Shown piece after piece: positions 4,034 to 7,165 of a stretch of DNA of 35,447 nucleotides (the stretch's first letter is position 1; each line of letters starts with the position of its first letter). Location of the stretch: contig CAIWDB010000308.1 in NCBI GenBank assembly GCA_903911305.1, positions 1 to 35,447 of the forward strand. Reading direction: 5' to 3'. A program made the position numbers and the translations under genes. The notes below the pieces were generated by a model. That model had not been told where the DNA came from, ran no database searches, and saw nothing but the letters and a program-made list of their open reading frames with translations. This DNA is from an uncultured Methylococcaceae bacterium (lineage in GTDB: Bacteria > Pseudomonadota > Gammaproteobacteria > Methylococcales > Methylococcaceae).

Positions 4034-4537
4034 ATGAAAAAAGTACTTCTCTCAATCCTTGCAATTACTGTGTTGTTGGAAGAGTGGCTTTGGGATGTGC
4101 TCACAGATTTTGAGCACTGCCTCACCGCTTGGTACCATCTGGAAAACATAGAACGCTGGCTGGCCAATTCCCATCCATGGGTAGCCATCACTGCTTTTTT
4201 CATTCCCAGCTTGCTGTTTTTGCCCGTCGAGTATACGGCACTGTCCTTATCTGCCAGCGGACAAGTGGTAGAAGGCATATCCTTACATATTGTTAGCCAG
4301 ATATTTTCCACCATGATACTTTCATGGATATTCGACATAACCCGTGATCAACTCATGACTATTAGTTGGTTCGCTGCGCTATATCAAACCATTACCCGCT
4401 GGCTGAACTGGGCACATGGGCTTTTACGTGAGACAGCCGCATACCAACATGCGCTAAAGCTGAAGCTGGCTACCCACGACAAACTGGTCGAATGGTTGCA
4501 CAAAGAAGACCCGCTTAATCCAGCCGGTTCTCGATGA
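4034..4537 (+). CDS. Small inner-membrane protein of unknown function
   Basis: A 167-residue protein with about three predicted membrane helices: residues 3-22 (interrupted by an EEW motif), about 48-72 (AFFIPSLLFLPVEYTAL) and about 83-103. After these comes a cytoplasmic-looking C-terminal amphipathic region rich in Leu, His and Lys. No catalytic motif is visible. Similar small membrane proteins are annotated only as hypothetical, so no function is offered. It begins 83 bases after the ftsH terminator, so it probably has its own promoter, and its last 23 bases overlap the end of the convergent DUF2272 gene. Confidence 0.7.
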   Translation: MKKVLLSILAITVLLEEWLWDVLTDFEHCLTAWYHLENIERWLANSHPWVAITAFFIPSLLFLPVEYTALSLSASGQVVEGISLHIVSQIFSTMILSWIFDITRDQLMTISWFAALYQTITRWLNWAHGLLRETAAYQHALKLKLATHDKLVEWLHKEDPLNPAGSR

Positions 4538-5273
4538 TCAGGAACCAGGGGCGATGCTGGGTTAATTGCAAATAGCCGTCTTGGGAGAGTGTCAATATAC
4601 TTTTTGAAACAGAATTGCGCACATTGCCGCCAATTGCATGCAGGGTTTTTCCCTCTACCTCCACAACAATGTCGCAATGCAGTTTCGCATTGAGGGACAT
4701 GGGCAGTTCTTCCACCACCTCGCCGAAATAGCCAGCCCCTCGATTCGCGCAGATTAAATCCCCAGGTTTAGGCTTGTACTCCTGTATGGTATGGGGTATG
4801 AAAGCGGCTTCGGGATTGTCGCGTCCAACGGTCATAATATGGGACAGGTAATCCCGGTGGGATGGGGCCGATGGAAACAGATAGTTGGACACCCCCGCTT
4901 CTCGCATCACCCAACTGATAAAGGCGGCGGACCAAGGTTCTTTGCAATCCTTGCCTGATAGCCTGGACATGCCGACAGATCGCCAATAACGGTTGACCTG
5001 TTCGCTATGCGCAAAATCATCATCCTCCCAACTTCCCACATGGGGTATGCTCTCCTCGTTTTCTTCGATGACCACTTTCTGCTGACCGAAAAACACCCAT
5101 TCGTCTTTCAAGATTTCAATTATTTTATATTTCAACGAATCAACCGGAATTTGATATGGGTTACTCTTCGGCACGACAGTTTCTACCGTATTGGCAGGTT
5201 GCTGTTTCTTGGCAGAGCTTCCACATCCTGCCAATATCAAAGTTAAAGCGATAAGAAACAATTTACTAATCAT
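4515..5273 (-). CDS. DUF2272-domain lipoprotein
   Basis: A 252-residue lipoprotein. The lipobox LAGC puts the lipidated cysteine at residue 17, after a short hydrophobic signal. A low-complexity linker (18-40) precedes the domain. PWSAAFISWVMREAG at 113-127 and LHCDIVVEV at 198-206 match my memory of DUF2272, a family related in fold to NlpC/P60 or CHAP papain-like proteins. At the position where those enzymes carry the nucleophile this protein has Ser115 rather than Cys, with Cys110 nearby; His199 and Asp201 are present. Whether it is an active hydrolase is therefore open. It lies 95 bases downstream of the 598-residue secreted protein on the same strand, and the two may be co-transcribed. 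It overlaps the convergent membrane-protein gene by 23 bases. Confidence 0.8.
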   Translation of the reverse strand: MISKLFLIALTLILAGCGSSAKKQQPANTVETVVPKSNPYQIPVDSLKYKIIEILKDEWVFFGQQKVVIEENEESIPHVGSWEDDDFAHSEQVNRYWRSVGMSRLSGKDCKEPWSAAFISWVMREAGVSNYLFPSAPSHRDYLSHIMTVGRDNPEAAFIPHTIQEYKPKPGDLICANRGAGYFGEVVEELPMSLNAKLHCDIVVEVEGKTLHAIGGNVRNSVSKSILTLSQDGYLQLTQHRPWFLIIENRLD

Positions 5274-5368
5274 AAGCTAAGTTTTGTCATGGGGTTCGGT
5301 TCTGTGGCTACGACAATCTGCCTAAATTGTGTCAAGCCGATAGTCGGACGGAGTCAATCTTCGTAATG

Positions 5369-7165
5369 TCATCGTGTTGGACGACGGGCGTCGCGAAACC
5401 AAGGCCGGTATTGTTCCATCTTGGCATGTTGAGCCTCGGGGGCATGGCGGCGGCAAGTCGAATATTCTTCAGTGCCGGGCTTTGCCCCCCAGCGCATTTC
5501 TGCACAATCATTTGGATTGTAGGCAATTTCGAAGGCATGTTTCCTCGCGAGTATATCTGCCAAGGAGAGTTCCCACGAACTACCGTCACTGCGGATATAG
5601 CGAATTTTTCGCTCTTGGATACGCTGTTCATGATATTGTTCGATTTCAGCCTTCAAGGACTGCGGCGTGTCTCCGTTTAACACAAACAATTCGGGGTGGC
5701 GGACAATTTTATTCGGTAGTCCGTTTAATACGTTGATCGCGATGATCAGGCGCATGTCGCGGGACGGGGTGGAAAAATCCTCCCAAGGCCCGATGGTTTC
5801 AAAAATCCCTGCGCCGCTAGGCATGGGGATGACGCCGCCAGCACCTTTCCTAAAATAAGACTCCCCATTTTCCACTGAAGTCACCCGTGTCTCCACTTGT
5901 TCCACTAAGGCATCCAAGGTGCTGTCATACGCCTGTCTAGGCTTTAGCCCTTTGGGATTAATCAGCTTGTCCATGCGAGCATAGAATTCTTCAGGTGTCA
6001 ATCTATCTTGTTCCAATGAGAAAGGTGCATAACTTGGGTTATCTACCAACTCGCCATTTGAAAATGTCCGCAATCCACCAGAGCCGGAGCGAGCCAACGG
6101 GCGAAAAGCTTTAAAACCCGGACCTGCACTCGCTACGTCAGCAAACAGAAAAGTGCCTTCCCAAAAACGCTTGCGGGTCACCGAATTGTCAGGCTGTGCA
6201 TCAACGGCCAGCAATATCCCCGGCCTAGTTGCGGTTTGTGGAACCCATTGGGCGAGTACCAAAACATGGCCGTAAGGGTCGGCAAATACGGTTCCCGGCC
6301 ATAAGGATTGGCGATCCAGAGGAACCGGGTACAAATCGGTGGCATCGTCGTCCAAGCCCGTGCGGGCCGAACCGGAATGGACAGCGTTGGTTAATTGACC
6401 GTAGACGTTTCTATAACTCCCTTGAGATGATGCCCCGTGGGTAAATTCAGTTTTTACGTTGGCGGGCCCACAGCGCGGAGGCGAGTTGGCTGAGCCACGG
6501 CTACAGGTTCTGAAACCGATTGGCAAGCCGACTTTCCAAGCGAAATAAGTGCGCAATGTATAGGGTAAATCGGCGCAATCAGGTTCGGAAGGCAAGTTTC
6601 GGTCTTCGTTCTGGCCCAAATGGTTGTAAAGGAAATTACGCTCCGAGTTGCGCAACACTGGCTCAAGCGAGGGAAAATTTAAGTTTTCTTCGACCGGGGC
6701 GCCAAACAGTTCTTCTATCCAAGCCGCATAGAACGCCTCCGTGGCAAGGTTCCAACCCATAGTGGGGCCTTCTTGTTCATTGCGACTGCCAACCGCCAGT
6801 GGGTGGCAGGCGAGGACAGTGCCGCCGCGACGGGCTTCAATTCGATAATCACCACTGGCTAGGTTATCCAAAACGGTGGACAAACTCCAAGGTGGCCCGC
6901 CTCGCGCACTTGATGGTAGCGGCATTCGCTTGCCGTCGCTGTCAATAATCGACATATCCGAAATGGACCCGTCCGTCGCTACGGCCATGACCTTCATGGC
7001 AGCATAAGGCTTAGGGTTGAGCGGTGAAACCCAGATGTGAGTATCGCCATTTTCTTCGCAAGTTGCGCTGTAGTCCGTTGACTCGGCATAAGCCAAGGGT
7101 GTCAATGCAATGGTGGATAAGTGACAAAAAAAAGCGCATACAATTAATTTGGGAAAAGTTTTCAT
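5369..7165 (-). CDS. Large secreted protein with transglutaminase/papain-like Cys-His-Asp arrangement
   Basis: A 598-residue protein with a signal peptide (residues 1-27, cleavage likely after AYA). Residues 40-125 look like a beta-rich Ig-type domain. The middle contains PDCADLPYTLRTYFAWKVGLP (from 195) with Cys197 at a helix start, then DPYGHVLVLAQW with His300, then VDAQPDN with Asp322. That order and spacing is what transglutaminase- or papain-like enzymes show, so a periplasmic or outer-surface hydrolase or cross-linking enzyme is possible. The C-terminus (Cys554 and Cys571, ending in many Arg, Trp and Phe residues) is distinctive and probably disulphide-bonded. I do not recognise a named family. 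It is divergent from thiD, with 147 bases between the starts, and upstream of the DUF2272 lipoprotein. Confidence 0.7.
   Translation of the reverse strand: MKTFPKLIVCAFFCHLSTIALTPLAYAESTDYSATCEENGDTHIWVSPLNPKPYAAMKVMAVATDGSISDMSIIDSDGKRMPLPSSARGGPPWSLSTVLDNLASGDYRIEARRGGTVLACHPLAVGSRNEQEGPTMGWNLATEAFYAAWIEELFGAPVEENLNFPSLEPVLRNSERNFLYNHLGQNEDRNLPSEPDCADLPYTLRTYFAWKVGLPIGFRTCSRGSANSPPRCGPANVKTEFTHGASSQGSYRNVYGQLTNAVHSGSARTGLDDDATDLYPVPLDRQSLWPGTVFADPYGHVLVLAQWVPQTATRPGILLAVDAQPDNSVTRKRFWEGTFLFADVASAGPGFKAFRPLARSGSGGLRTFSNGELVDNPSYAPFSLEQDRLTPEEFYARMDKLINPKGLKPRQAYDSTLDALVEQVETRVTSVENGESYFRKGAGGVIPMPSGAGIFETIGPWEDFSTPSRDMRLIIAINVLNGLPNKIVRHPELFVLNGDTPQSLKAEIEQYHEQRIQERKIRYIRSDGSSWELSLADILARKHAFEIAYNPNDCAEMRWGAKPGTEEYSTCRRHAPEAQHAKMEQYRPWFRDARRPTR

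Follow-up and report, generated by a model that had tools for sequence, protein, structure and literature searches.

A 35,447-nucleotide stretch of DNA from an uncultured Methylococcaceae bacterium (contig CAIWDB010000308.1 of assembly GCA_903911305.1, positions 1 to 35,447; here called the window) encodes on its minus strand a 598-residue protein, protein A. Judging from its conservation and predicted structure, we give it an even chance of being a thiol hydrolase of papain-like type that is exported and acts in the cell envelope. A role linked to the cell wall is the best reading of this protein; that it works like a hydrolase of the NlpC/CHAP type is plausible, and that it is a member of the NlpC/CHAP cluster is not shown. 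Downstream, on the same strand, lies the gene for a lipoprotein of the DUF2272 family, protein B. The source genome is a 5.8-Mb draft in 661 contigs. The two genes, and the parts and residues of their products on which the argument rests, lie in the window as follows.

5369–7165, minus strand: protein A, 598 residues, exported and matching no known family (open reading frame list, library scans, conserved family)
7085–7165, minus strand: predicted signal peptide of A, residues 1–27 (by eye)
6779–7051, minus strand: predicted Ig-like beta-sandwich domain of A, about residues 39–129 (AlphaFold2 model and VIA-align)
6098–6607, minus strand: putative papain-like part of A, residues 187–356, with borders chosen by us (helix-strand-strand-strand order assigned with DSSP, Define Secondary Structure of Proteins, and invariant residues)
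6575–6577, minus strand: Cys197 of A, the presumed nucleophile, in the motif PDCAD (kept in both branches of the family)
6266–6268, minus strand: His300 of A, the presumed base, in the motif YGHV (kept in both branches)
6200–6202, minus strand: Asp322 of A, the third residue in a preliminary description of this DNA (main branch only)
6194–6196, minus strand: Gln324 of A, His in the divergent branch, the preferred candidate for the third residue (joint alignment)
5372–6013, minus strand: mostly helical C-terminal part of A, about residues 385–598 (DSSP and invariant residues)
5274–5368, no strand: gap of 95 nucleotides (nt) between A and B (gene coordinates)
4515–5273, minus strand: protein B, a DUF2272 lipoprotein of 252 residues (Pfam PF10030, predicted CHAP/NlpC-like fold)
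5223–5225, minus strand: putative lipobox Cys17 of B (Cys in 52/52 rows)
4929–4931, minus strand: Ser115 of B, at the usual position of Cys (52/52 rows)
4677–4679, minus strand: His199 of B (52/52 rows)
4623–4625, minus strand: Asn217 of B, the presumed third residue (51/51 rows)

Protein A begins with what appears by eye to be a Sec-type signal peptide (…LAYA/ES). Scans of protein A from the window against Pfam, NCBIfam, PHROGs and PADLOC gave no match, and 65 of its relatives, compared with Pfam, gave just four weak and unrelated matches, each in one or two members. Sequence searches of the PDB returned a single chance match for A alone (expectation value, E, of 1.2), none for the profile A1 (65 rows, thinned at 88% identity) and only three, at E of about 1, with A3 as the query; a plasmid search with A gave no match. 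The family is unrecognised in the libraries searched, as the preliminary description had proposed. Relatives were sought with short peptide patterns in a database that represents each of 84,980 species by one genome; this found 91, of which 80 were kept, at 49–85% identity. Their titles name Methylococcaceae, Nitrosomonas, Chromatiaceae, Desulfobulbus, Desulfuromonas and Myxococcota, and the nearest rows to the window protein in the tree are, by title, uncultured Methylococcaceae and Candidatus Methylumidiphilus alinenensis. Within the order the A profile matches 53 of 251 genomes, three of them (G148, G238 and G247) by short pieces only. In a sample of 398 genomes from the phylum it matches 4, a number that includes the window's own genome and one false match (G630), in which the aligned frame resembles a receiver/kinase protein by eye. 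The distribution is patchy, not universal.

The three residues singled out in the preliminary description, Cys197, His300 and Asp322, are kept in every row aligned at their positions (105/105, 104/104 and 104/104; the set of 105 contains 96 distinct rows) and are invariant in A1. Three residues kept across several phyla, in proteins that share about 50% identity overall, would hardly be expected by chance. Besides Cys197, the main branch of the family conserves C36, C120, C221, C232, C554 and C571, making seven cysteines, and two invariant motifs, WE..TPSRD.R and C.E.RWGA, lie in the helical C-terminus.

The AlphaFold2 model (m0eeef50ef271), made from A with the signal peptide removed, has a predicted local distance difference test score (pLDDT) of 89.6 and a predicted template modelling score of 0.91. 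It falls into three parts: an Ig-like N-terminus (model residues of about 12–102 match Ig-type domains with Z scores of 8–9 in VIA-align), a middle part of papain-like order and a helical C-terminus. In the middle part, Cys197 (model residue 170) is placed three residues ahead of the helix 173–185 (block pLDDT 84 and 94), and His300 (model residue 273) directly ahead of the strand 274–281, which we read from the order of elements as the second core strand. Asp322 is on the following strand (290–296) and residue 324 just past it. Part of PMC10318531 describes the papain-like order as a Cys at a helix, a His on a strand and, on the strand that follows, a third residue that is polar; that the middle part of A has this order of Cys, His and a candidate polar residue is supported by the model.

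The identity of the third residue is informed by a divergent branch of the family. A search of the phylum found a distant relative of A in another class (genome G626), and this branch is present in 34 of 200 genomes of the order of G626, all of one family. It is labelled 'alpha', its gene content leading us to guess that it is alphaproteobacterial; one locus that we had labelled as belonging to it (L158) is placed in the A tree beside Myxococcota rows, on a long branch. Its homology to A is secure (probability 99.96% over 401 columns). The branch is without the Ig-like domain and without four of the conserved cysteines. In a joint alignment of rows longer than 500 residues (102 from the main branch, 94 of them distinct, and 30 from the divergent one), Cys197 is kept in 102/102 and 29/29 rows, one divergent row ending short at this position, and His300 in 102/102 and 30/30. 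The pairs D196-C197, P290-G291 and G299-H300 are invariant in both branches, as is R355 (132 rows); P290-G291 and R355 would, in our reading of the model, correspond to strand 1 and strand 5. Position 322, Asp in 102/102 main-branch rows, is Ala (27) or Ser (3) in all 30 divergent ones, while position 324 is Gln in 102/102 and His in 30/30. Gln and His are each known as third residues in papain-like proteins, according to part of PMC10318531. Since Asp322 is lost in the divergent branch, and position 324 always holds one of two residues known in this role, we infer that residue 324 is the better candidate for the third residue; Asp326, kept in both branches, may be a further one. The preliminary description of a secreted protein with a Cys197-His300-Asp322 triad is thus upheld for the first two residues and for the papain-like order, found in a confident model, and is amended for Asp322, which is not universal.

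Protein B carries by eye a lipobox, LAGC, with Cys17, and scores 98.3 bits against Pfam DUF2272 (PF10030; cut-off 27). Ser115 (in PWSAAF) and His199 are invariant in 52/52 rows (about 42 distinct) and Asn217 in 51/51; Ser115 is also invariant in the 29-row set A2. The best solved relatives of its model (pLDDT 82.9) are CHAP-type endolysins, namely Lys2972 (Z 10.5, 135 residues at 3.3 Å) and Ly7917 (Z 10.3), Foldseek alone giving an E of just 1.4e-3, and the predicted fold of B is CHAP/NlpC-like. B is by its score, its Ser for Cys and this fold a member of DUF2272, and the claim that a DUF2272 lipoprotein with Ser at the nucleophile site lies downstream of A is borne out. Ser also occupies the Cys position in 15/15 DUF2272 copies fetched separately (of 65 matches in the order; one, L221, is the same locus as L079, described below). 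In part of PMC10318531, Ser in place of Cys is given as a trait of DUF2272, and whether such Ser-based proteins cleave anything is treated there as an open question. The four high-scoring copies have in addition a Cys110, five residues before Ser115, which differs from the eleven lower-scoring ones (Glu in 8, Arg in 2, His in 1); on these sequences Cys110 marks a subfamily to which B belongs. A second type of DUF2272 protein (L205–L213) scores about 143–161 bits against A2 and keeps the Ser but is without Cys110.

Adjacency of B (within about 0.7 kb of A) was counted in the 77 of 80 loci with at least 600 nt of sequence downstream. B adjoins A in 30 of these, in 12/26 methanotroph and 18/20 Chromatiaceae loci, as against 0/8 in Nitrosomonas, 0/10 in Desulfobacterota, 0/11 in Myxococcota and 0/2 in others. 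The group labels in these counts and in the tree are our own, from titles and similarity; titles are vague for L071, L076, L077, L088, L097 and L101, and the tree files L076 and L077 under Myxococcota. B is downstream on the same strand in all but one of the 30 adjacent loci; in that one (L079, DFWO01000019.1, 5914–8606) an A of the Desulfobulbus-like clade and a close B of methanotroph type stand tail to tail. This B shares 63% identity with the B of the window, and the arrangement looks as though a foreign copy had taken the place of the original A next to an unchanged partner. When a close B is defined by a score of at least 285 bits, 33 of 53 A-bearing genomes of the order have one, versus 1 of 198 others (Fisher p 3e-26, kinship ignored). 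Among the genomes listed for one family (f1), 32 have both, 2 only A, 1 only B and 3 neither (p 0.005); three genomes of one genus (G020, G070 and G077) carry A as well as a close B, unlinked. Of the proposal that A and B form one functional unit, the part that is supported is that the genes are neighbours in many Methylococcaceae and Chromatiaceae; in the co-occurrence offered as a check on it, 20 of the 53 A-bearing genomes have no close B. An obligatory A–B unit is not supported.

A different lipoprotein of wall type takes the neighbouring place in some Desulfobacterota. A lipoprotein with SH3b and NlpC/P60 domains is encoded by or near A in 6 of 10 loci of this group and is adjacent in 5. 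In L071, L080 and L091 its gene is divergent from A; in L076 and L081 it lies downstream, as it does in L089 at a distance of about 2.5 kb. The one protein scanned (L081) matches N_NLPC_P60, SH3_6, SH3_7 and NLPC_P60 (PF12912, PF12913, PF12914 and PF00877), and the motif DCS, an intact Cys motif, is kept in 6/6. These lipoproteins are neighbours of A; homology to A was not found by the tests run. The A tree divides their six loci between two clades, a Desulfuromonas type among Chromatiaceae and a separate Desulfobulbus type beside some methanotrophs, so that the association is either ancient or of more than one origin. The keeping of A beside a different wall-type lipoprotein in unrelated bacteria hints at a role in wall remodelling. 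In the same tree, which is unrooted, the A of Nitrosomonas is nested within that of methanotrophs (L040, L042, L044, L045, L047–L049 and L051; forks at 99 and 98% in the Shimodaira–Hasegawa-like approximate likelihood ratio test), which suggests transfer of A between groups, including methane and ammonia oxidisers, in one direction or the other.

The adjacency of A and B could also be a matter of inherited gene order only, with A acting alone and B unrelated to it. This we consider rather improbable. It accords with the 47 of 77 loci in which A is without an adjacent B, with a genome (G088) that has a close B and no A, and with the finding that, in the loci compared, no neighbour of A other than B and the SH3/NlpC protein recurs beyond groups of close relatives. 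It is at odds with the contrast in close B between A-bearing and other genomes of the order, kinship being ignored there, and with L079, in which a distant A is found beside a close, convergent B.

Returning to A as a hydrolase of the envelope, its likeness to the NlpC/P60 and CHAP enzymes (PF00877, PF05257) lies in the order of helix with Cys, strand with His and strand with a candidate third residue, in the Asp before the Cys, in a conserved PG and a conserved Arg-Pro that may correspond to strands 1 and 5, and in weak CHAP matches of the divergent branch. CHAP is matched at E of 0.5 or less by 26 of 30 divergent members, which are related rows and not 26 independent results, with a best E of 0.0064, and is the only Pfam model to match more than three of the 30 at E 0.5. 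For L159, the one member whose range was seen, the match reaches 14.9 bits (cut-off 26) and includes the strand of the His. DUF2272 and DUF1287, which part of PMC10318531 counts as relatives of CHAP, match it comparably weakly (E 0.055 and 0.084). The envelope role also draws support from the neighbours of A, which in two groups of bacteria are wall lipoproteins of papain-like kind (DUF2272 in 30 of 77 loci, SH3/NlpC-P60 in 6 of 10), and from the three genomes that have A and an unlinked close B. The differences are that A stays below profile cut-offs, has no GD motif, has 102 residues between Cys197 and His300, and has Ig-like and helical parts in addition.

Several results weigh against a hydrolase of this kind. 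At E 0.1 none of the 65 A1 members matches CHAP, and no sequence profile reaches its cut-off for A. The GD motif on strand 1, which according to part of PMC10318531 marks the NlpC/CHAP cluster, is absent: G291 is kept, position 292 is T in 86/102 main-branch and V in 19/30 divergent rows, and D is not among the three commonest letters there in either branch. The rows listed from the fold searches with A are mostly Ig-type or similar beta-sandwich proteins; among the matches listed (50 of 1717 from the PDB, 50 of 999 VIA-align chains and 50 of 924 viral) there is no papain-like chain, which says little, the Ig-like domain filling the rows. Profile–profile comparison of parts of A with six sets (NlpC, 10 rows; transglutaminase, 27; DUF1175-like by eye, 2; DUF2272, 52, about 42 of them distinct; SH3/NlpC, 6; DUF1287, 1) gave probabilities below 2% throughout. 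The controls were five unrelated proteins from the window, and one of them, ThiD, scored 9.5% with the divergent-branch profile, above any wall hydrolase. This test is a weak one, since it scored some known kin pairs (NlpC with SH3/NlpC 97%, with DUF2272 70% and with DUF1287 72%) but failed on three others. To the same side belong the absence of both B and the SH3/NlpC protein from the Nitrosomonas loci (0/8) and the testable Myxococcota loci (0/11), and a family of the order (f8) in which 18 of 19 A-bearing genomes have no close B. A profile comparison of A with B gave a probability of 1.1%, and a common origin of the two is not supported beyond a possible shared superfamily.

A related possibility is that A is a papain-like enzyme of transglutaminase type (PF01841), with the order C-H-D, which joins or processes proteins and does not act on peptidoglycan. 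The main branch shares that order in all its rows, the GD motif of the NlpC/CHAP enzymes is missing, and an N-terminal beta-sandwich ahead of the catalytic part, as in A, is a feature of transglutaminases. The Asp is, however, replaced by Ala or Ser in 30/30 divergent rows, comparison with 27 transglutaminase domains gave, in the same weak test, probabilities below 2%, and the neighbours of A are lipoproteins of wall type; a transglutaminase-like A is in our judgement unlikely. Quite improbable is an A that is a non-catalytic envelope protein, with Cys197 structural or redox-active among the seven conserved cysteines: the conservation of the other six in the main branch and the failure to obtain a fold match for the middle part are in its favour, but the divergent branch drops four cysteines yet retains Cys197 and His300, and the model places these before a helix and at the start of a strand.

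Other features of the loci are more local. In the window, a 167-residue frame (4034–4537, plus strand), of membrane type by eye and without a match in Pfam or NCBIfam, overlaps the 3' end of B convergently by 23 nt. A scan for terminators and promoters gave site counts no higher than in shuffled sequences, and the sole terminator-like site on the strand of A and B falls within A, outside the gap. Frames that look by eye like EtfB lie near A in 14 of 15 divergent-branch loci, and frames like minor pilins, again by eye, beside A in Myxococcota; both were judged to reflect local gene order. In G626, a DUF1287 gene (L159, 3741–4343, minus strand; 224 bits) lies about 1.5 kb from the divergent-branch A, and it is not among the families common to most other loci. 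Two further loci, L124 and L126, give weak NLPC_P60 matches; by eye they resemble the DUF1175 type.

If A is a thiol hydrolase of the envelope, Cys197 would attack an amide bond, either in the stem peptide of peptidoglycan or in a protein attached to it. His300 would be the base, oriented by the residue at position 324, which is Gln in the main branch and His in the divergent one. The substrate or a partner might be held by the Ig-like domain and the conserved helical C-terminus, and B, as an optional partner, would work on or hold the same substrate; in some Desulfobacterota the SH3/NlpC-P60 lipoprotein with its intact Cys motif would fill this place. A wider proposal, which we put forward tentatively and with less confidence than the enzymatic role itself, is that A founds a new three-part papain-like family with a switchable third residue (Gln or His at 324), which moves between groups and teams up with interchangeable wall-acting lipoproteins (in Gammaproteobacteria DUF2272, based on Ser, and in Desulfobacterota SH3/NlpC-P60, based on Cys), so forming a two-part module for envelope remodelling in which one partner can be swapped.

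Protein A, with about 600 residues and about 50% identity or more between phyla, is absent from the family libraries searched. Its carriers include oxidisers of methane and of ammonia as well as purple sulfur bacteria and bacteria of the Desulfobulbus type. Should it prove to be an envelope hydrolase, one family would be added to the papain-like proteins, and its two kinds of neighbour would allow a test of whether the Ser-based DUF2272 proteins work on the same substrate as the NlpC/P60 enzymes.

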